From: Hexactinellida sp. DTS-2022
Taxonomy: Eukaryota > Porifera > Hexactinellida
DNA length: 64,000 bases
NCBI GenBank assembly: GCA_028753945.1
Contig: JAPNXP010000003.1
Span: 2,108,001-2,172,000 of the forward strand
Direction of reading: 5' to 3'
Of the stretch, positions 2,240-52,300 are shown one piece after another (position 1 is the first letter of the stretch; each line of letters opens with the position of its first letter). A model generated the notes under the pieces. The model searched no databases. It was not told where the DNA came from and saw only the letters and a list, made by a program, of their open reading frames with translations. Made by a program: the position numbers and the translations under genes.

Positions 2240-9702
<7,463 letters not shown>

Positions 9703-27108: not shown

Positions 27109-28692
27109 TTAATCTGTGAAAATCTGAAACCTAGACTCTATAAAGGAACGACACACGGGACAGAGTTGCCCAAGGTCAGCGATTCTTTGGACACATAGAT
27201 TGCAGCAGTTTGCATGCCGACATGGCATAAATACCCATGTCTCAGTACGGGGTCCAAGACAAACAACACATTGATTTCCTGATGCATAATTTTCATCAAT
27301 CTCATCTTCGGAATCGCTTGAAGAGGTGTTATCATTCGCTATGTTTCCGATTGAATTGCTTATTGATTTCAAAAATTTCCACGGATTGTAAATTCCATCT
27401 TGGAGTTTTTGTTTGCATGCCAACCTATAATCATCATTTTTAAGGTCTTTCTTCTTTCTGGGTCTGGATATTTCTCGCCCCTGGCGTAAGCGTCCAATAT
27501 CATTCTCCGTATCTGCAATTACCTCATTTAGTATCGACATAAAAGTCCAAATTCATGGGTGGCAAGTTTTACTATCGACTTTAACTTTGAATGGTAGCTT
27601 TCGGCCGCGTTGTTAGTAGAAATATTCAGTTCATGAATTGATAGTTCTTCGGGTGTTATTCGGGTTAGCCATCTCTTTTTAAAATATTGTTTTAATTTTT
27701 CCAATTTTTGCATCTCAGAATGTTCGATACTAGGTATTTGAATTAAGTTTGCAGTGGGAGTAATCAGAGGTCCTGGCAAAAAAGGGATAGCCATCAATTG
27801 TTTGATGAAAGATCTTGTGTCTGCGTTGTTCCTGAATGCATGAGCCAGTCCTAGTTTCTGTGTTTTTGCCCATAAACGTTGTGTATAGTGGAACCAGCAG
27901 CCATATAACTTCACCTGTGGGTAAACTTCTTTTAGTGCATTTCTAGCTGCAGGTTCCCAATCTGACATGGAGGCTGAAGGCTGGAATTGAGGGACATAGA
28001 CGGTAATATTTTCCAACACCGCTTTATATATCTCCTTACTCTTTGCCGTCATTAAGCAGTGAATTGCTGGTAAAGTATGACGTCCTACCGAAACAAAAAT
28101 ACTAGTCCACAATTGAGCGAATTGGATAGGAACTGTATAAAACGTTCCATCAAATTGAATATTTGTAACTTCACTTAGCAATTTGGCCATTTGTTCAGAA
28201 AAGAAAATCACTCCAGTCTGTTCACCACAAGTCACCTGAATTTTGAAATATTGGCCATAAGGTGTTGTTGGCAACATCTTACAAAATTCATCAGCTGTCA
28301 GGGGAATCTTTGGTTGAATCTTCCTTCTAGCCCGGTACATGGATGACTCACATTCCGGAAAGGAAATATCGCAAGAATGAGGATCAGTTCAAGTCGTATC
28401 ATCGAACACTTTCCTGAGGTTTGGTTGTGATGATTTAGCAGTGGATTTGCATTTGGATTTAAGTTAAAAATTTCCGACATATAATCATTCACAGTATGGT
28501 TGTGATCTCGCAAAGGGGTAATTAAATTAGTTTCACGATTAATCCTCCTAGTCTCCTTGCAGCCAGTACGAAAGATAGCACATTTAAGGAAATATATTTG
28601 TCCGTAGGTTTTGACTGAATGTATTTATTTCCATCACAACTTGTAAAGACTTTTCCAAAGCTGCGTTTATATTCTTCAATAGTATATTCCAT
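27109..28692 (-). pseudogene. FLYWCH-MULE-RING transposase of MULE 1, decayed
   Basis: Read on the minus strand from a likely ATG at 28692. (a) A FLYWCH-type zinc finger (DGNKY...GCK...HNH, about 28640-28490), frame-shifted near 28580. (b) A TGA codon near 28385 within the linker. (c) The MULE transposase domain (28340-27540), with the candidate DDE residues in IQFDGTF, SDWEPAARNA and NNAAESYHSK, plus the GCWFHYTQRLW motif typical of the family. (d) A frameshift near 27540. (e) A C-terminal RING finger: QCVVCLGPR, PCRHANCCNLC and LCPVCRS, ending FQIFTD before the stop at 27109. The RING is the IAP/MDM2-like C-terminal type by pattern. The transposase would cut and paste the element; in this copy it should be inactive. 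Confidence 0.88.
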
Positions 28693-29000: not shown

Positions 29001-29064
29001 GTCATGATAATTCTGACAAATGTCAACTCCAAAATTCTGACAAATGCAGCGCCCCCATTTGAGT

Positions 29065-29548
29065 CATATCCCCGTATATTGGCCAAATCCCTGTACAAGG
29101 TCCCAAAAGTTTTCCTCGCTCGCTGCGCTCGCTCGTCCAGAGAATTACTATACTTGAAATTACTATAGACAGTGATATAGAAAAAATATCAATTTGAAAA
29201 GGAAAAAGCATTAAATTATATACTGTACACTGTACAGGGAATCCTGTACGCTTTAATAAATATATAAACTAGTTGTGCCTTTATGTGGTCAATGCAGAAT
29301 GCATAGCAGAATATACTATCATCACTGTAGACATTTTTAGGCATTATTTGACTCATAATTAGTAAATTAGAAAATCTGTACGAATGGAATAAATGGGGGG
29401 GGGGGGGGGGCGGCACATACTTTTGAACCGGGGCCCCCGAAACCTTAGCTACGCCACTGTGTTACGTAGCTAAGGATCAATTGATCCATTGGAAGTTTGT
29501 TTCTATCTTGTATCATCTCTGACTCAGAGATTAATGCTATTTACCAAA
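29065..29548. other. Spacer between MULE 1 and foldback I
   Basis: Contains a short palindromic 'gctcgctgcgctcgctcg' (about 29117), a 'gtacagggaatcctgtac' palindrome (29232-29249) and a run of about 14 G with 'cggcacatac' (29396-29415). Then follows part of composite repeat A. No gene. Confidence 0.55.
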
Positions 29549-31029
29549 TAGTGGGGGCACAACCTAAGATTCCGTGACCGACCTCTGGCAAGTTAAGTTT
29601 TATGTCTGATTCTGATACTTTAGGCCCTTAGGGTATATCTCGCGATTTAAGCTCCCAGGTCGGGCTCGAAAATTTGGGCAAACTTTTTTATAGCGACAAA
29701 TTCAAAGGGCCTCCGGCAATCATTTTGAAAAATTAAGGCCCCTCTCTGAACATTTCATAAATTGAGATTAGAGTGTCTTTGAACAGTATACAATAAGTAC
29801 TAGCTGCACTGAAAATTCAACTCAATCGGGACTATACTTTTAATGTAATAACCTTTTGTAGATTCTAACGTCATTTGTCACCATGGGAGGCCATTCTTTA
29901 AACTATTTTTTAAGGGATTTGTAGCATATCTTATCCTATATATGTACATGAAATAACCTTTTAACTCGCTATGTAGTATGTCTCCATGCAAATCTCGGTA
30001 ATAGAGCTGTTGTATGACAGTTTAACTGCCATGACAGTTTAACTACCTTGTATTATTGTAACCATGGATATTCCAGCCATGACAGTTTAACTAGCATGAC
30101 ATTTCTACAACTTCTTTCTATTACTTCCTCAACTTGTAGTTCCTATTGCATGATGACGCATTCTTTATAATAGTATTCTTGCAATCAAAGCTATACCTCA
30201 TACATACTATAAATCGCTGAGAAACAAATCATAATGTAACTAACACAATCATGAGCCTATTAAATTTTATATGCCATGTGAAAAAGAATGCGTCATCACG
30301 CAATAGGAACTACAAGTTGAGGAAGTCATAGAAAGAAGTTGTAGAATTGTCATTGGTAGTTAAACTGTCATGGCTGGAATATCCATGGTTATACTAATAC
30401 AAGGTAGTTAAACTGTCATGGTAGTTAAACTGTCATACAACAGACCTAAATTTAGCACTTTTATTCTTCTGAGAATCTCACATGAGGGTGAGGAAGGAAA
30501 AGAAATTGACCCATAGACCTTCTATTCGCCCACTTGGTATATATAATTATCATAATTTTGACGTCAATTGACTGGATTTTTTTATTTTTGTATAGTCAAA
30601 GTGCTAAATTTAGGTCTATTACCGAGATTTACATGGAGACATACTACATAGCGAGTTAAAGGTTATTTCATGTACATATATAGGATAAGATATGCTACAA
30701 ATCCCATGACGTAGGAATCTTCAAAAGGTTATTACATTAAAAGTATAGTCCCGATTGAATTGAATTTTCAGTGCAGCTAGTACTTATTGTATACTGTTCA
30801 AAAATACTCTAATCTCAATTTATGAAATGTTCAGAGAGGGGCCTTAATTTTTCAGAATGATTGCCGGAGGCCCTTTGAAATTGTCGCTAAAAAAAAGTTT
30901 GCCCAAACTTTCCAGAGCGGCATGGGAGCTTAAATCGCGAGTTATACCCTAAGGGCCTAAAGTATCAGAATCAGACAAAACTTAACTTGCCAGAGGTTGG
31001 TCACGGAATCTTAGATTTTGACCCCACTA
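29549..31029. mobile_element. Foldback I, 1.48-kb near-complete inverted repeat
   Basis: Both ends read inward as 'tagtgggg...ctaagattccgtgacc'. The arms, roughly 700 bp each, stay complementary through 'ccggcaatcattttgaaaa', 'gtactagctgcactgaaaat' and 'acaagttgaggaagt', leaving a small loop near 30190-30280. It sits in composite repeat A, whose 'attagtataaataattatt' resumes at 31033. No transposase. A shorter relative is at 44864-45519. Confidence 0.88.
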
Positions 31030-31800
31030 AAATTAGTATAAATAATTATTAATTAAATTATTAATAATTTAGTACCAATTTCAATGTCAACTTGAATATA
31101 TAAAGTTCAATTATTTGTCATAAAAAGTAATTTAATTTATTTGGAACCAAATTACAATTCCGCACACTCGATGACCCCTAATAAACAAATTGGAAGCATA
31201 TATATAATATGTCAAATTAATAGACTGAGTTAATTATAATTAATTACGTCACGTCAGTATATTAAAATAGTTTAAGAATATTCACGTAGAAGTAAATATA
31301 ATCACATAATCTGTTGTTGTTATGGAATGTAAAATCTTAGTTTTCAATTGGAAAATAGAGGCCTACTTGATTTCACAAGTTAAATCAATATAATTATCGC
31401 AAGTGGAAACAATTGAATTAGTTTTAACAGTTTTATTGAAATTGTAGTGTGAGTAAACAAAGAAATTTCAACCCCCATTTATGGCAGAAATTAAACCCAT
31501 TATTAAAAATTTTCTTATCCCATCAAATGCAGAATTTTATGATAAATCCAATGGTGAAATAAAAAATGCGGGTTTAGTATAACATTTTTTAATTATGGAC
31601 CAGACAAACTTTCAAAGGTGTCAAAGTCTTAAAAAAATGGTTTTCAAAGATTTGGCTCGAGATGCACATCTGTAACATATGGGACACCGATGTTACAAAT
31701 TTTAGCTCCGGGGAAATCTAACTCTGGCCTGTAGAGCGGACACGGACTAAATAAAAACCAAAAAAAAACCAAGGCATTGATTTAAATACCGGGCCACTAT
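31030..31800. repeat. Composite repeat A, variant end
   Basis: AT-rich module as elsewhere, but ending in a variant tail with 'gatgcacatctgtaacatat' and 'ctctggcctgtagagcgga'. The same tail is at 41222-41320 and 56070-56160. It holds the undisturbed 'ttggctcgagatgcac' target (about 31650) that is interrupted at 40716. Confidence 0.75.
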
Positions 31801-32144
31801 ACCATGGGCGCAAAGTTTGACAAGTATGAGGTTGAAGTTGGGGGGGCGCGGAGCGAGTGTAGAGAGCGACCTTATGGGGGTTCAGGGGACTCTGCGCCCC
31901 TGAAAAAAAATTGATTGCGAGATACCCAGATACGATTTGTAACCATTCATGGAACCAATGGAGTAACAAGTCCATACTAAATAATGTAAATTTCCTAATA
32001 TATTTTTTATCCAGAGGGCACGGTAACACTCGCACCATTAATGTTGCCCCCTTCAACTTTTTACGGGGGTGCGCGCGTTACTTAACTTTATACATAAGAA
32101 AATCAGGGTAAATCAATGTGATCTACTGAGTCCCTAAATATGAA
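31801..32144. other. Spacer with G-rich element
   Basis: Contains 'atgggcgcaaagtttgacaa' and 'gggggggcgcggagcgagtg', a low-complexity element resembling those near 21.5 kb. No gene recognised. Confidence 0.45.
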
Positions 32145-32480
32145 TTCCCATTTCCCATTCACCAATAATAAATTTCATATGTATAAAACTAACTAATCTC
32201 GAGATTTTAACAAAATTACCATATATAGAAAGGTGTAAGAATCGCATAACAAATATTTTCGATAAACCAATATGACTGTTGGACTCCCAAAATATGATTT
32301 CCTGTACGAAAATGATACATTTCATATGTATAAAGTTAAGTAATCTCGAGATTTTAACAATATTACCATATATGGAAGGGTGTGAAAATTGCATAACTTA
32401 CATTCCACAAATATTTTCGATAAACCAATATGACCGTTGGACTCCCAAAATATGACTTCCTATACGACAATAATACATTT
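32145..32480. repeat. Tandem duplication of a ~165-bp unit
   Basis: Two copies share 'ctcgagattttaaca', 'attaccatatat' and 'ttttcgataaaccaatatga' followed by 'gttggactcccaaaatatg', with point changes. No coding potential. Confidence 0.85.
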
Positions 32481-32589
32481 CCTGTGTCTAGCATATGCGG
32501 ATTACGGGATATCAATAAGTAGCAATACTGTTTTAGGCCTACGCTAATTTTACCGTAAAACGAAGTTTACAGTCCCTATATTAAAGAAG

Positions 32590-33000
32590 TCCCTGACTAT
32601 AGTAAAGTCGGCACAGTAATAATTGGCAACCAAAGCACTGAGATTAGAACTTGTCCCATAGGCGTCGATATTTTTGATATCCTTTCAAAATCTGGGGGGC
32701 CAAAAAAGTTTATCTCTAATAGAGATAAACTTTTTCTCTATACCTCATTATTAATATTCATTACAAAATTAACAATAAATTAACAAATTGTTTTTGTAAC
32801 ACCTTGCGAATGAATCTGTAGAATGTATAGTCGCATTCAATGTAACAAACAATCAATCTATGAAACATCGAGGTTTAATAAACTGGGGGGGCCTGGGATA
32901 CTCGGCCCCCCCAGCTTTAAAAACTAGTGGGGCCTGCCCCCCCATTGATGACGCCTATGACTGGGCCACTATACTATACTGTAGTCGGCACAGTAACAAC
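32590..33000. mobile_element. MITE B copy split by a 303-bp insertion
   Basis: MITE B halves ('ctatagtaaagtcggcacag' near 32596, 'gggccactatactatac' near 32963) flank an inserted element at 32657-32959. The insertion has ends 'cataggcgtcg' and 'cgacgcctatg'-like, the same termini as the 156-bp MITE at 8154. Flanks 'acttgtcc' and 'actgggcc' may be a diverged 8-bp duplication. Confidence 0.7.
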
Positions 33001-33532
33001 AATTAAATAGTACGTGTAAGAATGAAAAGGAAGAGCTTGAATTATCTTAAAGAACTCAATAATAGCCTCTAATTACCATATAAACAATAAATAGCATATA
33101 ATAATTTAATATCTAATAATAGACACCTGTGATGATTATATAAAAATGGAAACGCATTTGGCCTACAACAGAGTTATTAGTCTGAATTGTCCAACGTAGA
33201 GCCAAAAATTAATGTCAATTCTCAGTTCTAACGTTACGTAAGGATTCCAATAACGGTATATCCAATATGTACCATACCATCCCTTTTGTATAACAAAATG
33301 ATAAAAAACTGACAAAGGGAGAGGTAACTAATTATTTGGGAATTTTGTTTCCGTATGTTTCAAACGGAAACTATCAGAGATACACCCATGATTGTCCTGT
33401 TAATTACTGACTATTGAAAACTAAGATTAATATTTACAGATCACAATGCATACTAAATAAAACTTGTATTGTTAATCAATAACACGAATACTATAATTAT
33501 CTTTACTTTGGGAAATCCTAAATAAATTCATG
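33001..33532. other. 3' flank of the UNC13-like gene
   Basis: AT-rich sequence without repeats that could be recognised; it should hold the 3' UTR of the minus-strand gene. No canonical AATAAA was found on the minus strand close to the stop. Confidence 0.4.
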
Positions 33533-34317
33533 TTAACTTTTCTTTTTATCCTTTTTCTTAGATTCTTTTTCTTTTTTTCCCCCCACAGCGCTAAGATCAC
33601 TTTCCTCTTCGATGTATTTTTTTATTTTTTTTGAGAATTTGCTCGCTTCTTTATCAGTACGATCATTAATGGCGCTTAAAATTTGTGTATGGATAGGAAA
33701 CATTAGGTTTAGAGTAATATCTGTAACATCGCTGCAGCTCTTTACAAATTCATCCAACGCAAGGTAAACTGATCCACCATAATCATTCTTATTAAACATA
33801 TCATAGTCATAGAGTGATAGCTGTAGACAAGCACCTTTCATCTTTGAAGGTTTGTCATTCATTTTGAACTCAAAATCAAGATTCCAAGTTGGGTTTTGAG
33901 TGTTACTTTGATGTTTAGTTTTTACTTTTTCAAATAAATCATTTGGAAGAGTTTTAAATTTTATATATGGATCACAACTGCCAATTTTATCCATTTTTGG
34001 AAGATTTTCACCCCGAATTAGCTTCAATTTTAACACATTTTCTGATTCCAAATGATATACAGAGAAGGTTATAGATCCATATTTCTTCTTAACAATTTTA
34101 TTTTCGTCACACAGCTGACTACAATATATGGCAATGAGATCTTCTGTGTTATCTCCATAGAGACTTAAAGCAGATTCAAACATTTTATATTCTTCTGTTT
34201 CTAATTCCTCTTTCTTTAAACCGTTACCATCTACATGTACAAAGTTATAAATGATATCTATTGAGGTATGCATTTTACTGCAATAGTTCAGTTGTTTTGA
34301 TTTGCTTCTCTGCAACT
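33533..34317 (-). CDS. UNC13-like gene, last exon (MHD2 end, C2 domain, Lys-rich tail)
   Basis: Acceptor TTCACAG ends at 34318; 785 nt to the stop TAA at 33533-33535. Reads LQRSKSKQL..., then YGSITFSVYHLES opening the C2 domain and GACLQLSLYDYD near its end. The last 25 residues are mostly Lys/Glu/Ser. One possible poor-complexity extension of the C-terminus relative to human Munc13-4. Confidence 0.92.
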
Positions 34318-37300
34318 CTGTGAAGAATAAACAAATAATAAATAGAGGGAAGCCAATATTAATCTATACTATTAAAACATTACTAATCTGTACGTATATG
34401 TAAATTTAGTTTTGCATGTCAAGAATTGACTGAAGAAACTGGAAGACACCCAATGCAGAATTTTTGACAATCAGGCGTATTTGAAAAGTGTGCTAGTTCA
34501 TGGTAAATTTAATTTTTATGCTACTACAAAATACACTAGCATGCACATTAAACAAAAAATTTATTTCCAGCAATGGTGAACATCACTATACCTATTATCC
34601 TTTCTCTGTTAATAGAGAAGATCTTTAGCTAGAAGGTATATGGTAAGTTATATAGCAAACAGATGATTGGTAAAGCGATTATTACTGTAAGATATCAATT
34701 TTCTTATAAAAATTTCATCAATGCTACTGTGAGGACTTTTAATTAATTAATTAAACCTATATAATCTAACCTGCACATATTTTCACAATCTCATTCCATT
34801 TGCACTGTAACAGAAATTTAAAATCATCCTGCACCAAAGTATTCCAGGATGCTTCTAAATTAGTGGCCAACCAACTCATTAACACATCAATTGAATCATC
34901 GATAGCCTCTTCTGCTGGCTTTTTCATGAAATCGTTAAAGTATATCTTGAACTGTTTACTGAAAGCTGAAACTATCAGAATCAACATCTTACTCTTGTTA
35001 CTCTCAATTGATTCCACTGCTGCATTTAAGATTTTCCTCCACTCCTCTACCACTTTTTTATTCTCTTCTGACTGCTCTACCAGCTCATTCCATTCTAATC
35101 GCATTGGAATCTCCCTCATATACTCCAATACAACCTAAGATAAACAATCAAAACAGAAGACTTCACAAATTCGCATCTAATGCGAAATTAGTCTAAAAAC
35201 CATCTGGTGCATTGTAGGTGCTAAACAATTAATTGCAACTGTGTCCACAGCATTTCCCTTTGGAGGCACTATATTTTGATGGTTGGTTAATTGATAGTGG
35301 CTCTAAAGGGAAATGCTGTCGGCACAGCATCAATTTGGGATATTTTTCGACATGTCAAGAACGCCTAAATGTGATAGACCCATTTATCAAGTTGTTAATG
35401 GACAAAGGACCGATTGATAAATTTGAATTAAGTTTAGATCTTAAACATCAAGAGTTTAATGTCATTAATGAATTATGTAGATATAATAAGTTATATAAAT
35501 AGGTAATTATTTTAGCAATGTTATCCGCGGTGAGTTGAGTTAAGTCAAAAAATTCCTTATATTATTTTATTGTATTTTATCCATTGTATAGTAATACCAC
35601 CATTAAAAAGAAGTCAGGAGGAATTTATTAGTTAAATTAATATATTTATCGCAAGTTGAAACAAAAGTGAAAGATTTAACAAGTTAAATTAATATAATTA
35701 TGGTAAATTGAAACAATAGAATTATATTTCACAGTGGGCTATTATTGCCAATTTCTAGTATTAGGGTTTTACGCGTTAATCTTAATAGATAGGACTTTAA
35801 AATGTCTTATTACTGTATAGTAAGTCAACCATTGCGGTTCTTCTCACCTAATAATTTTTTAAATTTAGCATCAGGTTTCCATGATATGATGACTAATCAT
35901 ATTTACCATATATGGTAATTATGATGTATAGACACAGTACAGTCGACTCCGCTTAATAGAGCCACCTCGGGACCAGGTTGTTTTGACCCGATTAAGCGGA
36001 GAAACCGATTAACCGAAAATATTGTAAGCCAAACTGTAATTCTGTCAAATAAATCCTGTGAAATTTTGACCCGATTAAGTAGAGAAACCGATTAACTGGT
36101 GGCTCTATTAAGCGGAGTTGACTGTATATTACTTTAATTGGATTTTTTCTATGTACAGTCAACTCCGCTTTATAGAGCCACCGGTTAATCAAATAATCGG
36201 TTTCTCCGCTTAATCGGGTCAAAATTTCACAGGAATTATAGTTTGGCTTACAATATTTTCGGCTAATCGGTTTCTCCGCTTAAACGGGTCAAAACAACCT
36301 GTTCCCAAGGTGGCTCTATTAAGCGGAGTCGACTGTACATGTATATATACTATTAATTAAAACACATATAGTCTGTATAGATATGTCAGTATATATATAT
36401 ATGTACAAAGGTGAGGTTGGTTGACCATTTTGAGACTATATATGTAATTTGCATTATTAGTTTAAATGAATATTATAAGAGTTATTGATCAATTACTGTT
36501 AAATAAACTACAATATCATCAATGGAATTTTGAAGTATTGAATCTTTATTTGCATTAACAGTCATGTTTTCTTCTTCCAGCCTATTTTTGGACAATTCTT
36601 TTGATGACCTATTTCGCCGCAAAATGAACAAATTATGATTTTCATTAATTTCTCATTAAGAACTGGACAACCATAGATATACAACCTCATTGCAACATCG
36701 CTTAACCCGTGGAATAAATTTGATTTTCTACATAGATGGATTGAGAATTCTCGAATTAACTTGTGTCCTTGCTCTAATCCCTCTTCAGAGAGATTACATA
36801 ATCCCACGTTATTATTTCTCTCAATGAATTGGTGGACATGAGCCAAAAACTTGTGGAGTGTATTACTAACAGAAGCCCAAGGAAATCTATTCAAAATTAG
36901 CAAGTATGTATTGTTTCTTGACTCAATGCACGAAGTCTTTCTACATTAACAGACTCACAACTATTTGCAACCCTGAGCAATGCAGATAAATTTATATGAA
37001 TATCGGTTAGAAATTCTTTATGGACACTTGGTACAATTCTAAAAAACGGCTTTTTGTAAGAGAAAAATGTTCTTGCCATATTACCTGTGCTTGTGTTACC
37101 ACTTCCCCCAGGTTGGTCGAATAGTAGGTTTGTCAGTTCATGAATACGGTTACAGACCAAAGATCGATAATCTCGCACCGTTTGATCCTCTGTCCATTTG
37201 GATTTTCCTGCTGCAAGCCGATACATCAAATTCAAAAACCAATCTAAAATCCTTAGATAGGAATGTAAAGGTGATGCGGGAACAACATCAATGTCACTAG

Positions 37301-40300
37301 CAGGTTCGTGTATAATTCCAAATCGCTGGGTCGTTTTGTAGTTTAAAAGTTCTTTACCATCGGAAGTTAATTGAAGGATTGTCTCTTTGATATCCTCTAT
37401 CGAGCAATCTAAAGGGAAACCGCAAACAACTCTCGCGATGTTATTTATATCACTACGGGTTGCTTTGCAGGCAATGCAGGGTGCCCCTCCTTTTCTTGTC
37501 ATGACAGCTAAGGTTTTTCCGTCAAACATTGAGGCTTTGATTAATACATTGACATGGCCATTAAGGTAGTCAATACCACTTTCACTGAGTAATACAATTT
37601 CAGGGTTGATCAACTTGCTTAGTTCCATAACCGTGTCAATAGTCTCCTTCTGACAAATAAGTGCAACGGGCTGATTTGAAAAACAGGAGTTAGGATGACG
37701 ATTTTAGCCACAGAACATTTCCGAAACGATCTAATATCTGAAGGGGTGACACCATAAAAACAATATAATTTGATCGGTCCATATTAACTTCTGACATTAG
37801 ATGAGGAGAGGAATGAGATCCAGATCCATCTAGTCCATATTTGATTATGAAATTTAAGGGATAAAAGTGTGGTGCAGGAAAATTCAGCGGACATTCTCTT
37901 AATAACCGGTCAAAAAGATTGATTACATGAGAGAAATAAGAAATATATACACCAATTGGGTTAGAGACATTTGGATACCAATTGAAAGTTGGTACAATCG
38001 AGCTTCTGATTTCCCTGATTTTTTCCCAAGTTGATAAAACAAGTCCTTCAGATTGGAGATAATATTTAAGTTCTCTCCATTTTCCTTTACCAAGTTTAAG
38101 GTGATATGCTAAGAAAGTTGACTTTTCTGGAGACACTATGTTAGTAACAGATTGTAATGTTTCACCGTTATAGATTTTCCAAGCAATGTTTGCGACGCGT
38201 TTAAAACCAATTTCTTCTGTGGCTACTATATACAAGAGTAAGCAACATAGCGTATTACAGATATCTTCTCAAGGTTTGTTAATTGTCGGATTGAGCTCAA
38301 AATTCCAGTCTGATCAAGTCTGATCTTCTTTGAACGCAATTCAATTACATCGACATGTTTTCTCCTCTCTATGTTAGGATCTAGTTGAAATTGCAATCTA
38401 TAGAGGATGTAGCTCCCCGAAGAGAAGATTGGTCGTTGGTTACAATAACTGAATTCCAAGGAATCTCGACTTCCCACCAGTCACTATTGAGGTTATATAC
38501 CGATTTCTTACTCTTCTTGATATTTGTAAATATTTTGCCTAATAAAGATAATACAGAATGTCTTTTATCATCTTTAAGGTTAAAAGCTCGCAGAATTTGA
38601 TCTACAGATAGATTGACGTCAAAGTTATTTCCACTCAATATTTTAGCCAAGTCCAGACGTGTTTTAGGATTAAATAACTTAGCAGCCATTATCAGAAGAT
38701 AATCTACAAATTTTAAAGATCACAAGCAACAATATATCAAATAAATATATTAGTTAATAATCTATATATTAAATATACCTTATATCGTGACCTTCGTTAT
38801 ATAAGGCCTTACTACTACTCCGAAACATGGATTACTTAAAGGCCATTGATTATTAGCTGACATATCTTTATCTCAATAGCTAGTAATGATAGACCTGAGA
38901 AATGAATTATATTTGTTTAGGAAGTTATGAACATGATATCAAGGCATACATAACACACTTTAGAATTGTGATATATCACCATTTGATTACGTAATCGCTA
39001 TTTTTCGTGGGAATTATCGTGTTTTATAGCCTGCTTTTAACATAGTTAAACGCGTTATAAATGTTCAAAATTGGAACATGAGGATGTCCATAACTAGTTG
39101 AATGAAATATATCGAAATTATAAATGGAATGTTGACACATTCCTCGGTTGCCAGGGAAATGCAATTTTCTTAAAATGAGACATAACTCAAAAAATATCTA
39201 TTTTATGTAAACTATGCTAATACTGATCTATCCGCAACTGGTAACTTCCTATTCGTTGATAATACATTTTCTAGGCCTAACTTCAAGATTTTTTGAGATA
39301 TAATGAGTGTAATGCCATATAAAGAATTAAGTGCTAATAATCTCATTGTCCAAAGATTATTGAAGTTAGACATAAAAAATGCATTATCAATGAATAGGAA
39401 GTTACCAGTTGCGGATAGATCAGTACTAGCTTAGTTTACATAAAATAGATAGATTTTGAGTTATGGCTCATTTTAGGAAATATACATTTCCCTGCAACCG
39501 AGGAATGTGTCAACATTCCATTTATAATTTCGATATATTTCATTCAACTAGTTTATGGACATCCTCATGTTCCAATTTTGAACATTTATAACGCGTTTAA
39601 CTATGTTAAAAGCAGGCTATAAAAACACCATAATTCCCACGAAAAATAGCGATTACGTAATCAAATGGTGATATATCACAATTCTAAAGTGTGTTATGTA
39701 TGCCTTGATATCATGTTCCTAACTTCCTATATAATTATAATGCATTTCTCAGGTCTGTCACACTAGCTAATGAGATAAAGATATGTTAGCCAATAATCAA
39801 TGGCCTTTAAGTATTCCATGGTCCAGCAAAATCTACTCAGTAGTAAGGCCTTATATAACGAAGGTCACGCTTATATGTATTGTAATTACTAGATTCATAT
39901 GGGTCTACACCATAGCAACCAAATGGTCATTATGGAATTTTAGGAAATTCTTCAGGTTGCGCAACGAAGCGGAGGTTGTGCATTTAATATGGGTTTAGCA
40001 ACGTTTCATAGGCAAACATATTAAAAATTGGACTGCAAGGTAGTGGAAGAATATTTTGCGGTGAGTCGTAATCATTTTATTACTTCTCAATTTTTCAGCT
40101 AGTTTACCCCAAGAATTTTATCAATTATTTAATAAAACAAGTTAAATAGAATAAACTAGTCATACGAAATGAATTCATAACAGTTCATTCATTAATAAGA
40201 ATGAATATCATTGTTACATTGTATCACCTTCGGCGAATATTCAACGTAATGGAATGCTACATCAAAACTAATTAACAAAATGCAATTTTGACCGAAAATA

Positions 40301-43300
40301 TATTCTGGTCAACAGTAGGCAGCATTAGAAATTTATTAGATCAACCAAGTTAAATTTTGTAATATATCATATTTAAGATGTATGCATTAGAAATCCAATT
40401 TGAAAGTGTAGTATTTTTGATAAATAATTTTACCTAATGCACTATAGTAGCCCACTGTGAGATTTAACAGTTTTACTGAAACTGAAGTGTGAATAAACAA
40501 AGAAATTTCAACACCCATGTATGGCATTAATTAAACGTTTTATTAAATTTATTCTCCTGCAATCAGAAGCAGAACTCTATGGTGAATCCAATGGTGAAAT
40601 AAAAAATGCGGGTTTAGTATAACATTTTTTGAATTATGGACTAGACAAATTTTCAAATGTGTCAAAGATTCAAAGTGGTATAAAAAACAGGTTTTTCAAA
40701 GATTTGGCTCTAGATCAGTGCTGCCAAGTGAGTTCAGATAAATTCCTGGAGATTGACCATAAATTTACGGAGAAACAAAAGTTTTTACGGAGCATGCTAA
40801 AATTCCCTCTGCGACCCAAAAGTTCTTAATTTGCTTTTTCAAATCATATAAACTAACTATTTTGTATGAATAATCATTTATAAAGGCACTTGTAAACAAT
40901 AAGATATACTCACTAATAGTATGTATCAAACTATCAAAGTAAGATTTATATTAAATAATTTTTAATTGTGCAACTGTTTTGAATCAAGAGTATTCTGCGA
41001 TTGGAATAATTCATCACTATGATATTATTTAACATATTATAAAACATAAATAATGATATGGTGGTTCACTAGTAAAAACCAAACGCAGCTATATGTTAAA
41101 CAAGAAGTCTTAAATATATTTCGCTAGAAATACGTAGAAATAAGTCTTCATACGCAGACACGTAGATAGGGGTATATTTACGTAGTCTACGTAAATTTAC
41201 GGAGACTTGGCAGCACTGCTCGAGATGCACATCTGTAACATATGGGACACCGATGTTAAAATTTTTAGCTCCGGATAAATCTAATTCTGGCCTGTAGAGC
41301 GAATACGGACTAAAAAAAAAACCAAGGCAGTGATTTCAATACTGGGCCACTATACTATAATATAGTCGGTACAGTCATGGAAAGATTTTTGTGGCCATTA
41401 TTTTGATGAGTCATTACAATAAAGTGATCGAAAGCTCAATCTATCTTTATTCAAAGTTATTGTAGAAATTTGGGGGGCCCAGGTATAATTTTTGGGGGCC
41501 AGGCCCCCCCAGGCCCCCATGTCTAAGCCCATGGGCACAGTATTAACTCCATTTTTATTAACACCATGCTTGTTTCCAACTGGGGTCCACAAGCATGGGC
41601 GTAGGAAGGGGGGTCAGGGGGCTTAGTCCCCCCTGGCGGGACAAAGTTTGATTATTTATTCACCAAATTATAATATGATTTGGCAAACATTTTACTTGTT
41701 TAGAAACATCTACAATTGTACCTACGTAGTTGGCCCGCTGAGAGGGGAGTGGCATCGGAGTTCATTTGCATTTCTAAAACCTCAAAATTAGAAGAATCAG
41801 TGTAAATTATGATACAAATGTTGTCAATGCCCACAATGTATGCAAATTTGTATTACGGGCAATGGTAGGAGATCCACAGATGTTTGGTACAGTTGAAACA
41901 GGGTTTTTAACACCAGGTTATTCTAACTATATGTTTTTTCTAACTAATTCATACTCTTATTATTTAACCCATTATTATAATGAATTAGTATACCGGTTTT
42001 TTAACTCGGGTTATTCTAACAATTAGTATAGTAATAAATTCCAATTTTGACTAGTATTTCCATTGGTCTATTCTAAAATCAGTGTATTCTAGCTATTCTT
42101 AACTGAAAAGAAATAGTCAAAAATCCGGTTTTCACTGAATTTGCTATAAGAGGTCTACGGTCGAAAATGGTGGTAATCGCTGCACTAATTCATTTAGTTA
42201 GCTACATTATTTTTTGCATATGTTCCAATATCCAATATGAATAATAGACATATAAATTATTGGACAAATCGCACTCTTTTAATCTGGTAGGATCAGGAGT
42301 TTATCTAGGATTTTCGTGGCTGGCACTTTATTATGGAGGTAGAAATTTTCCGGCACCCTAGATTAGCCATAATTCATAATCAGTATAATTCAATGATGCG
42401 GCATTATTTAAGGAGGTAAATTGCTACGGTGCACAAACAGTTATTTATCCAAGCATTTCTGGACCAGAAAATCTGGCCATATACCCGGCACCTAATTAAG
42501 TGCCAACCCGGCACCTAAATCGAATCGCAATTCACGCACTTTTTCACCACAACTGATGCCTGGCCGGCACCTAAAGTGCCGGCCAGGCACCTAGATAAAC
42601 CCCTGGGTAGGATTGTACTTACACAAGCGTCTAACGCAAAATTACAGTTAGCTAAACACAATACTATGTGCTAAATCAACTTACTTGTGTGTTATTAATG
42701 CCAACACAGTGTTTCTCATTTAGTTCGAAGGCAGTCGGCTTCTTGTCCTTTTTCTCCAATTCTAAACTTAATATCTTGTGCATTTGATTGCTGTAAAATG
42801 TTCCAATATCGCATATCATTTTCACAATCTTGGCTAGAGTTAAACAATATAACTATATTTCTAATGAAAATATTTGGCAGAGGCACTAGTGCTTCACAAT
42901 TATACAATTATGAATTATGTGAGAAGAATATAAATTGCAAATAATTGGGAGTACTATTAGCGTTTTTTTCGCGACTGGCTGTAAACTTTTGAATTTATTT
43001 TCTTTTAAGTGCATGTCGCGCCTATATGCCTACCTCAAGTTAGAAAAGTTAGCAAATACGTCTAAAAGTTATGAAATATTAACTCCGAAAATGCAGACAT
43101 AATAATAATAATAATAATAATATTAGCCAAAAAGATGGATTCTTGTCTGATTTCGCAAGTAAGAAAATCAAACTTAAATAATACAAGCCAAATGCTGATC
43201 AATTGGCTATATATTAATTTGGAGAAATATAAATCACTTACCAATTATGAGTGCACCATCTTGTTCGTGTGACCAACTCAATTGTCTATGGAACTGATAA

Positions 43301-46300
43301 CACTGTTCGAAGCATATTGTGATATCAATAGCTGATGATGTGACCTTAATCTTGTTTTCTTGGATAATATCCTTTGTGTCTATTTCAATAGCTCGCTTAA
43401 CGGTCCCTATATTTTAATAGATCGTAATAAACGTCGAATAAAAATATTAGATCATACTATATAATATATTTTATCCATCAAAATATATTTTGCATGATAA
43501 ATGTTCTCTCAGAAATTTGTTCGATAAGAGGAGAACCTTTTCATAAAACAATAATGGCATTTCATAATTAAATTGAGACATGCTTGATACGAACACGAAT
43601 ATGGGAAAATATCTGTTAAGGAATACAAGGTTAAATTCCCCTATAGCTTATACAAATTCATACAAGTGACTCCGGTTAATAAGAATTTCTGGATAACACG
43701 AACAAATTTCGAAGGTTCACTTCGTTCGTATTAATGAGAGAATTAGGTAAACAGATTTTGAAAATAAGACCCAAAAAATCTGAATTTACAGCTGTGCTGA
43801 CTCCATTTTAATTTGGAGGCACCATATTTGGTTGTTCAATGAATAATAGTGCCTCCACAAGATAATTCTGTCTGTACAGCTATAATTTCAGAATTTTTCT
43901 GCCAAAGGTAGGGATGAATACGTATAAATGTAACCAGTCCTTTAGCTTTCGGTCTCGTCCGCTTCGCGATGGATCACTTAGCTGTTACGCGGTCTAGATA
44001 TATTCGTTAAATATCTATACAATTAAACACAATTAATCTAAAAAATATTTGTTTGTACGTGCAGAATCGATTGAAGAAACTACAATACTCACAGGGCTGA
44101 TTTTTGGCATGCAGGGGTATTTTGTATCTGGCTCGTATAAATTCGAGTCTTGAACGAAAATTCACACCTACCATGGAATTATGACGTCATTGTAAGATTT
44201 TTGAAAGTGTGAAAATCCACCTAATTGCTTATAACTGACACTCCATGAGAGATAGAAACGTTAAAAATAAATATAATATGTATATTAATAGTGCCAACAT
44301 TTCCTTCAACAAATCACAAATATACTCACTCATTGTCAAAATATGACGTCATTATGATTATACAAAACAGAAACAAAAATAAAAAATTGCAGCTGTGCCT
44401 ACAGCATGCAGGCAGGCACTATCTTTTGGTGGCTAGTTAATTGAAATTTTTTGGATTTATTTCGTCAAGAATCTGGGCCTCAAGACCTATTTGTCAAGTG
44501 GTCAAATTATCCCTTAATTGCAGTATTATTATACAATGAATTAAACAAAGGAGAATAAAATAAATAATTTGTTGGACTTAACTTAACTAACGTAGATAAT
44601 AATTATCCTATTTATAAATAATTGATAATTAATGTATATTAAAAAATATCGAATTAATTTCAAAGATGTCTAAAGATAATTGCAAACTTCAAATATAACA
44701 ATCGTTCCTTGTGGCTCGTGACCACTTGACAAATAGGTCTTGAAGCCTAGATGACTTGGCGAAATAAATCCAAAAGTTTCATGGGATAATTTATATTGAG
44801 CTAAGCTCTACTAGAGCACAGTTTTGACAAATAATTAATAGAGATTCTATCAAAGTCTCATTAGTAGGGTCAATATCTAAGATTCCGTGACCATTGCCAC
44901 TGACCAACCCGGCAAGTTAAATTTTATGCCTGATTCTGATATTTTAGGGTATATCTCGCGATTTAAGCTCCCATGCCGGTCTCGAACATTGGGCAAACTT
45001 TTTTATAGCGACAAATTCGAAAGGGCCTCCGGCAATCATTTTGAAAAATTAAGGCCCCTCTCTGAACATTTCATAAATTGAGATTAGAGTGTCTTTGAAC
45101 AGTATACAATAAGTACTAGCTGCACTGAAAATTTCAACTCAATCGGGACTATACTTTTAATGTAATAACCTTTTGAAGATTCCTACGTCATTTGTCACCA
45201 TGGCATGGGAGGTCCATTCTTAAAAAGTTTTTTTACGGGATTTGAAGCATATCTTATCCTATATACATGCAATGACCTTCTAGTACTTATTGTATACTGT
45301 TAAAAAACACCTAATCTCAATTTATGAAATGTTCAGAGAGAGGCCTTAATTTTTAAAAATGATTGCCGGAGGCCCTTTTGATTTGTCGCTATAAAAAAGT
45401 TTGCCCAAATTTTCGATACCGGCATGGGAGCTTAAATCGCGAGATATATCCTAAAGTATCAGATCAGAATCAGGCATAAACTTAACTTGCCAGAGGTTGG
45501 TCACGGAATCTTAGATTTTCTTAGATACATAGTAATCCACAAACCACTATTACTATATGATATTATAGGATACTGGATTATGGTTGGGTAATATTGTGTG
45601 TTTATAACTTAGGAACTCAAAGGCTTCTAATATGTGATGGAATGTTTTCCTTCATAAATGTGCAAGTAATGTTACATTAGATTGTTCTGTTGAACTCTTG
45701 GAAATCACTTATTGGTTTATTAATTTAATTGTAAAATAGTATATTTCTTCTTCGTTGGCTTGCACCAAATTGATAGCTTGTTAGCCGTTAACTGGCTATG
45801 AGGCACTTGTGTAAGAAGGATAGAAATATACAGTAGAATATCGTTAGTACGAACATCAAGGTATCGTCAAAATTCGTTCGCTTTATCCGGAATTTGTATT
45901 GACATCATTTGTATTGAATACGCTATCACATATTAGAAGCCTTTGATTTACAGTCAACTCCCGTTATAACTAAGTCGGATGTAACGAAGTACCTACATAT
46001 AACGAAGTCAGTCAATGGTCCGGAAATTCATCTATCTTATTACATTATTAAAACTTCGGTTACACGCTTATAACGAACTCTGGCTATAACGAAATCCGTT
46101 TATAATGAACTCCGGTTACAATGAAATTCAACTTGTAATGAACTCTTTTAAGATCGAACTCCGCTTATGACGAACTCCGGTTATAACAAACTCCGCTTAT
46201 AACGAAATGAAACTACGGTACCGAGCACTTCGTTATAACGGGAGTTGACTGTATTAAAGAAACCCCTCACAGACGGGACGGGAATGTGCTTCTTCTGGTT

Positions 46301-49300
46301 GCACAGGCGGCACCCAATGTTTAATTTAACTAGAATTTAAATTTTTAAATTACATTTAATATAATTTAATTAATGTTTGAATTGTGAAGACTTCAAATGT
46401 CTAATTAATTAAAGATTAATTACAGTCTACTCCGCTTAATTGGGACACGTTTGTTCCAGGCCTCTCTCTAAGCGGAGTTTCCAAAAAACCGAAAATTTTA
46501 TGGTAAAGTAGGGATCTACTAGCGAATTACAACAATTTCAATTTTGAACCTGTTACAACAATTCCTTCTACCTGCGACCCCTTGACGCTACTCACACGCA
46601 TAGTATGAGCCTTAATATTCTGTGGACCGTTTGGAATTATCCCTGAACCACAAAGTCATATTCTCGGGTACATTTCGATTTACGGAAAGCAATAATTCTA
46701 ATTATATACAGTATGAACTATTATCGTGATAGGTTAAGCGGCGGAAACCTTAATATCATTCGTTGACCCATTTGGGTTGCGGTCCCAGGTTGAGAACCAC
46801 TGAATTATAGTATATTCAAACAAATTTAAGTGTACTGTAAATACATACCTGAAGCACCCAGTCACTTAAGTTACCGACCGCCTTTAGGCTAAAACGGTAA
46901 GTTCGTTAAGTACGGTTAAAACAAAGTTTATAGTACACCAGAAGAACAGAGAGACTGAATATCCACTGAGTACATGACTTACTAAAAACATTATACAATC
47001 AAATTATATATTCAAATGAATTTTCTATTGTTTTGGTAATTAATAATTACTAAACACTAACTATTTAACATTGTGGTTCATTTAGAAATTACGGCTACAA
47101 CCGCATCCTTGGTCCAAATTTCCCTTAAAAAGTGAAGTCTTATGTTTGGTAGACCATGATTGACCAAATTTTACAATCGGAAGAATAAATCGTCATTTTC
47201 ATAATCGATCGGCGACCTCATCCCTGGTCCAAATTTCAATTGTTACTGTGAGGCCTTATGTATAGTAGGCTATGGTTCAGGCATGGCCTACTATATTATA
47301 CGGCTAGATAAGTCAAGTATTTGCCATTTTATTTTCAGGCCAGTGTTTACTTTCTAATTGCTCGTAAAATAAATTACCTATTGTAATGGAATAAACTAAA
47401 CTTATGTTTTCAAATACGCTGGAAACATCTAAAATACTTTTGAGAGTGATTTCAAGTTGGATTTAACCACAATGACGTAATCAAATATACATACCCATAT
47501 ATTTTAGTTTATTCCATGACAATAGGTAATTTATTTTACGAGCAATTAGAAAGTAAACACTGGCCTGGAAATAAAATGGCAAATACTTGACTTATCTAGC
47601 CGTATAATATAGTAGGCCATGGTTCAGGTGTCACAAGTTTGGCCCAAAGCAACTAATCTCCCAAAGCCAAATTAGTGCGATAAGTATTATACATACATCA
47701 GTATACTCCCGTTATAACCAAGTCGTATATAACGAAGTACCTGCTTATTACAAACTCCGCTCGCTTATAACGAAATGAAACTACGGTCCCGAGCACTTCG
47801 TTATAACGGGAGTTGACTACTATATATTTTCCATTTAGTACAATGTGTCAAACGTGTTTTGTGGTGAAACACAGTGACCTGCAACATGAATATTGATTCA
47901 GCTCCACACGAAGTCTCCCTGAAAATGCGTAGGCGGCATCTCTTTATCATTATCTCATTAATATTGTTTACTTGTTCTACCTTAGCTTTTAGTTTGTTTA
48001 ATTTTCAGAAATGCCTAATTGCTGCTCGGCTATTGGCTGCAAAAACAACTACAAATCTTCTTCAGAAATTCTACCAGTTTTCAAATTACCACAAAATCCA
48101 CCTGAACTCAGACACTCCTGGTTTAGGGCTCTTCGGAGGGATGATTTAGATGAATTGAAGGCTGTTTATGTTTGCGTGAAACATTTCCGCGACGAAGATA
48201 TAGAATACAGCCACAAAGTTCCAAATGGAGATGGAACTTTCCGTGAAATCCCTCGAGTCAGCCCAAAGCTGAAAGATGGCGCTGTACCAGTTTATCTACC
48301 CAGTTGTCCATCATACTATCAATCTAGTGCTAAGCGCAGGCGTCTCCTCGACTTAAGAGAATATGAACTATTCAACCAAACTTTAACACTTAGCTTGAAT
48401 TCAGAAGCTGAAGCTGAAGAGGTAGAGAAGTTCAAGATTAACAGTTTACATGATATTCCAGACAAGTTATCTTTGCTTCCCTTGCCAAAAACATGGTCAT
48501 TATGGTATCCTGACGAAAACAGTATAATTTTTATGCGCCCTAGTCTAATAAATAGCGATATCCTACTAAATAAGTACTTGATAGTACATTCTGATCTATC
48601 TGTTAGAGCCAATTGTAATGGAGAACCTTGTTCGCTTTCGCTAAACTCAATAAGTGATATACGACAACTTGAAACGATTCTTGGTGAAATTTCTAAATCA
48701 ACACATCCCTGTGAATCTTTTGTTTCTGCGACGACTGGTTCACATATCTCTTTAGCGAAAGACCATATCCAACAAGCCATCAATACTTTGCAAACTAATG
48801 AATCCGATTTAGAATCAACTGATTATCCAGAACTTTCAAGACTGCAGTTCATACAATGCCAATTAGAAAACAGCCTCGTCCCTCAAAACAGGCGTAGATA
48901 TAATGTACTAACACAAGTTTTGGCTCTTAAAACACATTTAATTTCTCCAGCCTGTTGTAAATATCTCCAGCAGATGCTTTGTCTAACTCTTCCTCATGTC
49001 AATACTCTACTCAAGTTATATTCTTCATCTGGCCTTGAAAGTGACTATTTTCCCTTCCTCAAACAAGCGACTCATTCTTTCTCTGATCCTGAAAAACATG
49101 TAATTGTCCAAATGGACGAAATTCATGTCAAATCGGATATTTCATATATTGGTGGTAAGATATATGGTGCTAGTTTAAGACCAGAAGATCCGGTCAAAAC
49201 TGTATTCGCTATCATGGTCTCTAGTCTTCAGAAAAAATGGTCCTGTATTGTTCGTTTGTTACCCTGTGCTTCTCTTTCAGCGGAAACGATATTCGCTATA

Positions 49301-52300
49301 GTGGTATTATGTATTCAAGATATAGAGCTTTGTGGTTTAGTTGTAGATATTATCTCTACCGACAACTATCCTCTCAATGTAAAATTATTCAAACTCTTCT
49401 CTAAAAATGGTAAGCTGGAAACTCAAGTACCGCATCCTTCTGATCCAAATCGGATTCTATTTCTCACCTTTGATTTTGTGCACATATTGAAGACAATACG
49501 AAATAACTGGTTGAATCTAAAGTCAGAGAGTAAGAGTTTTATTTACCCTAATTTAGAAGATATACAACCAATTATTGTTCCTATCCTTTGAGACTGTGCA
49601 CAGCTTCTTTCCGCGATGTCCGTACCTTATATCTTTCTGAGAAAGAAAGCTTGGCAAAACTAGCTCCAAGGTTAACATTTAAAGCATGTTTTCCTTCTTG
49701 TTTAGAACGTCAGAATGTGAAATTAGTTTTAAAGGTCATACATGAATCCACAATATCTGCTTTAACCATTCAAAATGACCAACGTTGTGTTGCATGCATA
49801 TAAATCTAATACTTCAGATTTTCTTGACATTATCTTATCTTTATGGAAAATGTTCAATGTAAATGCTCCATACAAGCATGTTCGTTTAAACGATCCACCC
49901 TCTCAACCATTCACATTTAATGACGACCGCTTTGCCTTTTTAGATCGTATAGTTTGTTGGTTAGCCGCTTGGGATTCACTTCCTGGGAAAGATGGGAAAT
50001 TAAGCAAACAAACTTTCACAAGCTTAATTAAGACATGCCTGCCTTGTTTTACCACAAATAACTAACTGTCTTTGATTCTTCGCAAAGTTGTATTATTGAA
50101 GTAAATTGTTTAATAGCTAATAAAGTGAAAAATTACAATTCTAAGGTAATTTCTAAAGGATTAGAGAAATGAAAATTGAAAAAGTTTAATTCTTAGTTCT
50201 TTCATTGGCAGTACAGATCCTACATTTCTACGTTTTTCTTACTTAAGTTCACGTTCAAGGAAGATTAAGCATTTTGTTACTATTTGTAATAATTAGATTA
50301 ATTATTTTAACATCCTCCACTGTGTAATTCTAATAGTATTTGTTTATTTTATTAACAATTAAAGTGCTAATTGTTCATATTCCTTAAGAATTTCCCTTTC
50401 TGATTCACTGAATTTGGCAATTAAATGGGAGCGCTGCATTAGCTCGAATTGTTATGTTGTCGATAGCTCGAATTTAGCATGTTGTCGATAGCTCGACTCA
50501 GTTTTTGACTATGTTGTCGATAGCTCGACTCAGTTTTTGACTATGTTGTCGATAGCTCGACTCAGTTTACATATGTTGTCGATAGCTCGACTCAGTTTTA
50601 CATATGTAGTCGATAGCTCGACTCAGTTTTACATATGTAGTCGATAGCTCGACTCATTTTTACATAAGTTGTCGATAGCTCGACTCACTTTTTGACTATG
50701 TTGTCGATAGCTCGACTCACTTTTTGACTATGTTGTCGATAGCTCGACTCAGTTTTACACATGTTGTCGATAGCTCGACTCATTCATTTGTATGGCTGTT
50801 GTCAATGGGAAATAATTGCTGAATAGGTTTGTTTTGGGAAATCACATTTTATGTGAATTCCAAACAACTTGCTTCTCTGGTATAAAAAGATTTTTGGCCC
50901 CTTGATACTATTGTAATATTTACATCTTCAACTATGGGATACATATCAGACACTATAAGCGTAGTAATGGAAAAAGTTCTTTCAACAACCGATGGGTTTA
51001 AGTATTCTAAATATAAAATGAAAGAAAATACAACACACCTCAGATGTGTTTTATCAAAAATTGGGTGTAAAGTGACAGCTAAATTAAAGTTAGAAACTAA
51101 TTTGATATATCCCAATTAAATTCATAACCATGGCATTGATGAGTACAGATCAGGAGTTTATGAATTGAAGACAAAATGTAAGAAAATGGCTCAAACTACT
51201 CAAGATAATTTAAGGAAGATTTTCGATGACGAAACAAGAACTAGTCAGTTTGCAACTGAAATTTCTTTCAATGAGTGTGAGTCTTCTATGTACCGTTCTA
51301 GGAGAAGATTGCAACCTAAGATCCCCCTTACAGCTATAGAATTCTCAGTTATGTTACCCGAATCTACTTTTGCGACTCACTACAAATTTACTGTCACGAC
51401 TAATAACCATACTGCTGTTGTCTTTTATTCTCAACACATGAAAAATTACTTATCAGAAATTTCCAAAATTCAGTCTGATGGGACATTTTATACAGTGCCA
51501 ACCCAATTCTCCCAATTATAGACAGTATTCGTGGTAATTGATCGACATGCACTCCCAGGCATACATTGTTTAATGACCTCTAAAGATCAAGAACTCTATA
51601 CTGCAATAATAGCTAAGATCCATTCTCTCATTCCAGATTTCATACCGAAAATCTCTATTTCTGACTGGGAACCAGCACCGCGAAATTCTATGAAAGAAAT
51701 TTATCCCGCCATTAAAAATCAGGGATGTTGGTTCCACTTTACCCAACGTATCTGGGCCAAAACTCAGAAGCTCGGGCTTGTTCAGAATTTTCATGGTAAT
51801 CCTGAAACTGCCAAGTTCATAAGAAATCTCATGGCAATACCATTTCTCCCAGCAAGTTTAATTCGTCCAACCTATGCATTCCTCCAAGTACCGGATCCTA
51901 CAAATCTAGAATCAGGCAAATTGGAGCAACTTCGTAAATACTATAGAAGAGGTGGATTACTCAAATAGATCCAGAGGAACTTTCTATCTTGAAGCTGAAA
52001 TTACCACCTATAATGCTGCGGAAAGCTATCACGCAAAGCTCAAATCCATCATTAAAACTCCTCATCCAAGAGTATGGAATTTTCTAACAACTCTAAACAA
52101 TATGATAGATTACATAGATAATGAATTAGGGAGATTGAGACTAGGTCATAGCATTTCTAGGGCGAGGAAATCAAAGCATGTTCTAAAGGATCAACAACGC
52201 GAGGTTATTAAGGAAAAGTTCAGATCTGGCGAGTTCACTCCTTGGCAGTATTTAAATGCAATGAGCAACACTATTGGTGGTACCTTCACTTTAGAAGCAG

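Follow-up and report, generated by a model that had tools for sequence, protein, structure and literature searches.

A decayed, probable Transib-superfamily transposon in a glass sponge genome and the asymmetric CACAGTG ends of its RAG2-less relatives

How V(D)J recombination arose hinges on what the ends of the ancestral transposon looked like before RAG2 joined it, and a broken RAG1/Transib-like transposase in the genome of a glass sponge (Hexactinellida sp. DTS-2022) raises this question at a single locus: does it descend from a RAG1-like element or from a Transib, and by what kind of ends did it and its relatives move? The relic lies on the minus strand at 36562..38689 of a 64,000-nucleotide stretch (positions 2,108,001 to 2,172,000 of contig JAPNXP010000003.1), hereafter the window, whose numbering is used throughout, and was first noticed in an initial annotation made from the letters alone. 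We conclude that the window copy is very probably the remains of a cut-and-paste transposon of the Transib superfamily that was autonomous, had no RAG2 and belonged to what has been described as Subgroup I (Tao et al. 2022). Sister families in the same genome begin with the heptamer CACAGTG and pair one short-spaced with one long-spaced end.

The transposase relic was delimited by open reading frames (ORFs), Pfam and PDB-chain matches and a 15-protein alignment. Its reading path opens with an ATG at 38689, closes with a stop at 36562-36564 and comprises ~709 codons, the stop included, distributed over five overlapping open frames with four frameshifts, near 38420, 38240, 37700 and 36920, and no further stop on the path followed. 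Six motifs occur in the order DGSG, FDGKTL, CIAC, HKFLAHV, EEGLEQGHKL and CSFCGEIGHQKNC, spread over three of these frames, with the N-terminus on the two others. In the alignment, eight landmarks of the window protein fall on mouse D600, D708, C727, C730, H795, H937, H942 and E962, and a codon check placed the catalytic residues at 37828..37830 (Asp of DGSG, D600 equivalent), 37521..37523 (Asp of FDGKTL, D708 equivalent) and 36772..36774 (Glu of EEGLEQGHKL, E962 equivalent), the CxxC zinc ligands (CIAC, C727/C730 equivalents) at 37467..37478 and the HxxxxH zinc ligands (HKFLAHV, H937/H942 equivalents) at 36838..36855, all on the minus strand. The C-terminal CCHC knuckle (Cx2Cx3GHx3C), a CTT1-type tail, was located on the same strand at 36592..36630 from the sequence and codon check.

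Membership in the superfamily is evident from several matches. The C-terminal piece matched PF12940 (RAG1) at 6.2e-7, passing the family cut-off, and the other four pieces, each taken alone, gave no RAG1 Pfam match. When the frames were concatenated with an X at each shift, the joined protein matched HzTransib at 3.7e-22, lancelet RAG1-like protein (RAG1L) at 6.3e-12 and mouse RAG1 at 2.5e-6, and only HzTransib, RAG1L and RAG1 chains of the PDB passed an E-value of 0.01, with the joined read and a family profile alike. The match to the RAG1/Transib superfamily is not due to chance. The initial annotation had named this superfamily, listed the six motifs in their order with the catalytic residues, zinc ligands and knuckle at the expected places, and called the gene decayed, all of which is borne out, the decay comprising the four frameshifts and two nested insertions; the interval it gave, 36562..38689, is right for the ORF and too short for the element, which spans 35730-40459.

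Within the superfamily, the window protein stands closer to Transib. A profile of ten family proteins scored 183 bits against HzTransib, 97 against lancelet RAG1L and 64-72 against vertebrate RAG1, and the identity of the window protein over 504 columns was 25.7% with HzTransib, against 21.7% with lancelet RAG1L and 17.6% with mouse RAG1. Martin et al. 2020 (PMC7204232) give below 22% as the identity range of Transibs to the RAG1/RAG1L core, and the lancelet figure lies near this upper limit. In an unrooted tree, the window protein grouped with 10 of 11 family proteins by a split supported at 95/96 (approximate likelihood-ratio test/bootstrap), outside which fell the RAG1+RAG1L clade (100/100), HzTransib and the divergent family member L009. 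The PreRNH stretch measured 54 amino acids (aa) in the window protein, 50-53 in the families and 49 in HzTransib, against 72 in lancelet RAG1L and 64 in mouse RAG1, lengths that on the RAG1 side vary with the alignment. No N-terminal zinc finger or RING was detected: the first ~110 residues from the ATG at 38689 contain no cysteine, and the two N-terminal pieces matched no Pfam domain; the RING is missing from some RAG1Ls as well (PMC7204232).

The features that were retained resemble those of Subgroup I Transibs, which combine the α11-α12 stretch, a CTT1 tail and asymmetric ends with the lack of a PreRNH loop (Tao et al. 2022, PMC9435367). Judged by length, α11-α12 is kept in the window protein, as the distance from the C730 to the H795 equivalent is 68 aa there, 66-70 in the family proteins and 61-65 in RAG1L/RAG1, against 31 in HzTransib, which we take as Subgroup II-type because it lacks this length. 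The CCHC tail does not discriminate between the two sides, since Subgroup I Transibs also carry one (Tao et al. 2022, PMC9435367). Relatives outside this genome were confirmed neither in viral contigs and bacterial/archaeal genomes, searched with short peptide patterns, nor in plasmids and phages, searched with tblastn; as no bacterial relative was found, there was no outgroup and hence no rooted tree. Among the open-licence papers listed, no title or abstract opening reported such a Transib family in sponges, and a co-mention of 'sponge' and Transib in PMC4298943 was discarded, the passage in question naming a transposon Spongebob.

The limits of the whole element were set by aligning its flanks with ten uninterrupted copies of a host repeat family in the window, in which the repeat is contiguous; at this locus it is broken exactly at 35729/40460, leaving an insertion of 4730 bp at 35730..40459, two nested insertions included, with the transposase on its minus strand. 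Inverted ends CACAGTGGGCTAYTAT stand at both junctions, and the junction comparison gave a 5′ terminal inverted repeat (TIR) CACAGTGGGCTACTAT at 40444..40459 on the minus strand and a 3′ TIR CACAGTGGGCTATTAT at 35730..35745 on the plus strand; the 12-mer CACAGTGGGCTA is exact only at these two junctions within the window. The target-site duplication is an imperfect 6 bp, ATATTT on the left (35724..35729) and AGATTT on the right (40460..40465), identical at 5/6 positions, and the corresponding site in the uninterrupted repeat copies reads AGATTT once in 5/10 and differs by one base in 5/10.

Two palindromic insertions are nested in the element. The larger, a fold-back insertion between the 5′ end and the ORF with approximate limits 38731..39964, is absent from the sister copy L049; the smaller, at 35916..36359 in the 3′ untranslated part, is self-complementary and carries TTAAGCGGAG repeats. 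With both subtracted, ~3 kb of the window element are left, comparable to the intact sisters described below. The fold-back insertion is ~1.1-1.2 kb long and has a half copy at 58097-58383, and the smaller nested element is related to 56666-56876, with 91% identity. Rfam gave no match in the window.

Relatives are numerous in the genome (18 contigs, 112,398,167 bp), where PF12940 found 33 matches, the window included, and the window protein found 68 matching stretches at ~60 separate places including the window itself, with 62 of 672 first-look candidates scored. Thirty-two related places were fetched, 13 of them with a related ORF of at least 600 aa. A convincing TIR pair was identified for eight of these 13 loci, and a separate end search gave five more elements. 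One locus, L019, is in both sets, having shown no TIR pair in the scan of long-ORF loci and obtained its pair from the other end search; no pair was found for L009, L022 and L032, and a candidate at L037 was dropped as weak (ends 9/12, duplication 4/5). All 13 sister elements so delimited start with CACAGTGG, nine of the 13 complete elements have a single ORF of 616-740 aa, and some of the ~60 places hold intact, almost identical copies of 3.0-3.3 kb. Copies within a family share 98.1-99.5% identity over 2.7-3.1 kb, which indicates that the lineage was recently active. A CCHC tail like that of the window protein is present in nine of the 13 fetched ORFs of at least 600 aa. The divergent member L009 (C2:3228051-3229859) encodes 698 aa, without a CCHC tail and with no TIRs detected.

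The sister families leave 5-bp target duplications, perfect (5/5 bp) in 15/15 cases, namely the 13 elements and two further pairs. Eight of these elements had passed a filter needing 4/5 duplicated bases and five had passed that filter or shown strong ends, whereas the two extra pairs were selected on end sequence alone and both show 5/5 duplicated bases.

The ends of the sister families are bipartite and asymmetric. Six of the eight TIR families tested carry a second block, close to GGGAAATAG, whose last base is nt 25-26 in the 5′ end and nt 35-36 in the 3′ end, giving a geometry of 7 + 10 or 19 + 9 with the second block at about nt 18-26 or 27-35. The genome was searched for CACAGTGG...RGRAAWTAG with the spacer left free, not imposed, and the reversed pattern as control: match lengths of 23-33 nt gave 100 sites versus 0 for the reversed pattern, and lengths of 31-51 nt gave 133 sites, 100 of them listed, versus 1. 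The listed matches comprise 198 distinct sites, 98 of 24-28 nt, 98 of 34-36 nt and two of 33 nt, and none of any other length. Among the same matches, convergent ends at most 7 kb apart combined a short with a long one in 22/22 pairs, and neighbours within that distance in other orientations formed two divergent and five same-strand pairs. The 22 pairs are not 22 independent tests, because the copies are related by descent and these families had already served to define the block; they fall into about nine size classes, many coming from few families. The geometry resembles that of the 12/23 recombination signal sequences (RSSs) of V(D)J recombination, whose heptamer is likewise CACAGTG (PMC8289069). 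RSS-heptamer ends and strict short/long pairing in RAG2-less Transibs extend, and do not overturn, the asymmetric ends published for Subgroup I. A third block near AATGTATTATT lies ~60-75 nt inside the 3′ ends of L011, L016, L019, L028, L033, L035 and L036, families about 46-75% identical in protein, and may possibly be a transposase site or a polyadenylation signal.

The window element belongs to a separate subfamily with CACAGTGGGCTA ends, otherwise represented by a single sister relic and by a number of short elements that mostly measure 1.06-1.24 kb from end to end. The sister relic, L049 on C16, is 90-96% identical to the window element over four aligned blocks and contains stops; its alignment ends near 3626 at a fresh CACAGTGTTTTC start, which suggests that a further element from this superfamily has inserted there. 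A 6-bp duplication is exact in two of the ten subfamily copies examined (L050 and L051) and matches at 5/6 bp in three, namely the window copy, L062/63 and L064/65, the last being a G run; the duplication made by this subfamily seems to be 6 bp, not 5 bp. Two short copies of ~1.06-1.08 kb lie 49 kb apart in the same orientation at C16:3179604-3180681 and C16:3229946-3231004 (flanks L054-L057) with their duplications exchanged, TGATCC on both outer flanks and CGCCAA on both inner ones, an arrangement that looks like a circle bearing one copy that recombined into another, or like a composite transposition.

No RAG2 partner was detected at any level examined. Six-frame Pfam scans of 29001-44000 contained no kelch or RAG2 domain and returned just RAG1, one C2 domain and one sub-threshold zinc finger, and the largest ATG-started ORF other than the transposase in the six intact sisters measured is 97 aa. 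A genome search with PF03089 (RAG2) came back empty, which is weak evidence as the controls were silent as well, and RAG2-like (RAG2L) genes are described as difficult to detect (Martin et al. 2020, PMC7204232). Beyond the superfamily, the initial annotation had raised the prospect of an element RAG1-like rather than Transib, with CAC-type terminal repeats, 5-bp duplications and a kelch (RAG2-like) partner gene. The terminal repeats are there, as CACAGTGGGCTAYTAT at both junctions and as the CACAGTGG start of the sister elements; the duplications are 5 bp in the sister families and an imperfect 6 bp in the window; the partner gene was found neither around the element nor in the six sisters. 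The profile search and phylogeny it proposed upheld the superfamily and spoke against RAG1-like affinity, RAG1 and RAG1L falling outside the window's group in the unrooted tree. An identity as RAG1L was rejected on the profile scores, the identity values, the missing PreRNH loop and N-terminus and the lack of a RAG2 find.

Several observations weigh against a Subgroup I Transib with RSS-like ends. The tree is unrooted and its references are one Transib and two RAG1-type proteins; the Subgroup I placement follows features described in the text of PMC9435367, not a joint tree, as the collections searched yielded no published Subgroup I sequence; and four of the 13 long ORFs (L009, L035, L037 and a possibly truncated L019) have no recognisable CCHC tail. 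In five copies of the window subfamily a 6-bp match is lacking, 8 bp being the better fit in two, and two of the five become exact when flanks are swapped. The GGGAAATAG block has no counterpart in the window subfamily, and an ATTAG repeat in the window element ends at nt 26 and 35, positions like those of the sisters, although a match of this quality arises by chance; the subfamily fits the short/long geometry weakly.

These points leave three other origins to be weighed. A true RAG-like (RAGL) transposon that lost its RAG2L gene would share the CCHC tail and the α11-α12 length with RAG1L, as the window protein does; the C-terminal piece alone matches lancelet RAG1L best (1.8e-11), and the end geometry of the sister families equals that described for a pelagophyte RAGL. 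Full-length and profile scores are nevertheless better for Transib, two RAG1L features, the PreRNH loop and the zinc region at the N-terminus, are missing, neither the genome search (controls silent) nor the six intact sisters yielded a RAG2 or second gene, and lancelet RAG1L as a query gave long genome matches of just 22-29% identity (best E 1.8e-18, L009), the short C-terminal ones reaching 42%, all of which makes such a relic improbable. Still less probable is a domesticated host gene of Transib origin whose breaks are only apparent and due to indels in the assembly, an idea that gains from four frameshifts without a nonsense codon on the ~709-codon path but founders on the full transposon ends and imperfect target duplication around the transposase, the two nested insertions, the second degenerate copy with stops on C16 and the many mobile sisters. 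CCHC tails and CAC/CAG-type ends are known in other superfamilies too, and PF06918 (DUF1280) matched one of ten family proteins at 2e-4, so that a different DDE superfamily (hAT, Kolobok or Chapaev) with a RAG1 likeness through chance motifs might be considered; it is refuted at the sequence level, with next to no probability left to it, by the PF12940 match in 10/10 family proteins and by the restriction of PDB matches to HzTransib, RAG1L and RAG1.

For the RAG2-less Transib-superfamily transposon that we prefer, we propose a mechanism beside the observed ends, target duplications, single ORF, residues, near-identical intact sisters and, in the sister families, spacer classes and pairing. By analogy with RAG and Transib biochemistry, a dimer of the DDE transposase would synapse one short-spaced 5′ end with one long-spaced 3′ end, the second block serving as a putative transposase contact. 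The DNA would be nicked on the CAC edge of the heptamer CACAGTG, and a RAG-like, hairpin-type double-strand break might follow, again as in those systems; joining to a staggered target would yield duplications of 5 bp in the sister families and, probably, of 6 bp in the window subfamily.

It is conceivable, although we hold it somewhat less likely than its opposite, that the CACAGTG heptamer, a second block at two spacings and short/long pairing predated RAG2, in Transibs of early-branching animals. If so, RAG2 recruitment and domestication inherited, and did not invent, the 12/23 logic. The window copy itself is a mere relic of one subfamily; the many RAG2-less relatives, some intact and nearly identical, make a pre-RAG2 origin of this logic directly testable.

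The remainder of the window contains other repeats and genes. MULE transposase relics lie at 27109-28388, followed by a RING finger (PF13920, 3.3e-11), and at 51120-52485, where CVVCL-type residues are readable, and THAP-domain and TNP-like (P-element-type) transposase pieces lie at 48002-49591 and 58380-58712. Papain-family (cathepsin L-like) protease exons at 18-386 and 9331-9702 belong to a small set in the genome, and in a silicatein check none of the eight read among 24 cathepsin-type genome matches was a serine-type cathepsin. The genome gave two matches each for the fibrillar-collagen C-propeptide and the nuclear-receptor DNA-binding domain, two nuclear receptors being a sponge pattern. 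Innexin and Wnt had no genome match, with controls silent as well. Glass sponges are reported to be without silicatein and to have lost Wnt (PMC10280926, PMC10282587). By these markers, the genome is an animal's, probably a sponge's and perhaps a hexactinellid's.

Compared with known systems, the element stands nearest to Subgroup I Transibs (PMC9435367), with which it shares a single transposase gene, α11-α12 (here by length), the CTT1-type CCHC tail, the lack of a PreRNH loop and, probably, asymmetric ends, which are clear here in the sister families. The text of that paper lists neither end sequences nor members of Subgroup I; the sponge host, the exact CACAGTG start in 13/13 sisters and the apparent 6-bp duplications of the window subfamily may set the present element apart. 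HzTransib (PDB 6pqn) is the best-scoring solved relative and likewise a single gene without RAG2, but has 31 aa from C730 to H795 against 68 in the window. The pelagophyte AanRAGL (PMC9435367) has the same geometry, with a 13-bp first element, a 4/13-bp spacer and a ~10-bp second element, and differs in its second block (CCTCAAYAYG versus GGGAAATAG), its first bases (CACACCC versus CACAGTG) and the presence of RAG2L, not found here. Lancelet ProtoRAG/RAG1L (PDB 6b40; PMC8289069) shares the catalytic and zinc residues, the CCHC tail and asymmetric bipartite ends, but possesses a RAG2L partner, a PreRNH loop and an N-terminal zinc region, none of which was found here, and has ends starting CACTATG with spacers of 27/31 bp. 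The vertebrate system is domesticated, employs RAG2, has a nonamer unlike the second block here and uses spacers of 12/23 against about 10/19, while RAG1 and its signals have in common with the sponge families the catalytic residues, the heptamer CACAGTG and the combination of one short with one long spacer.

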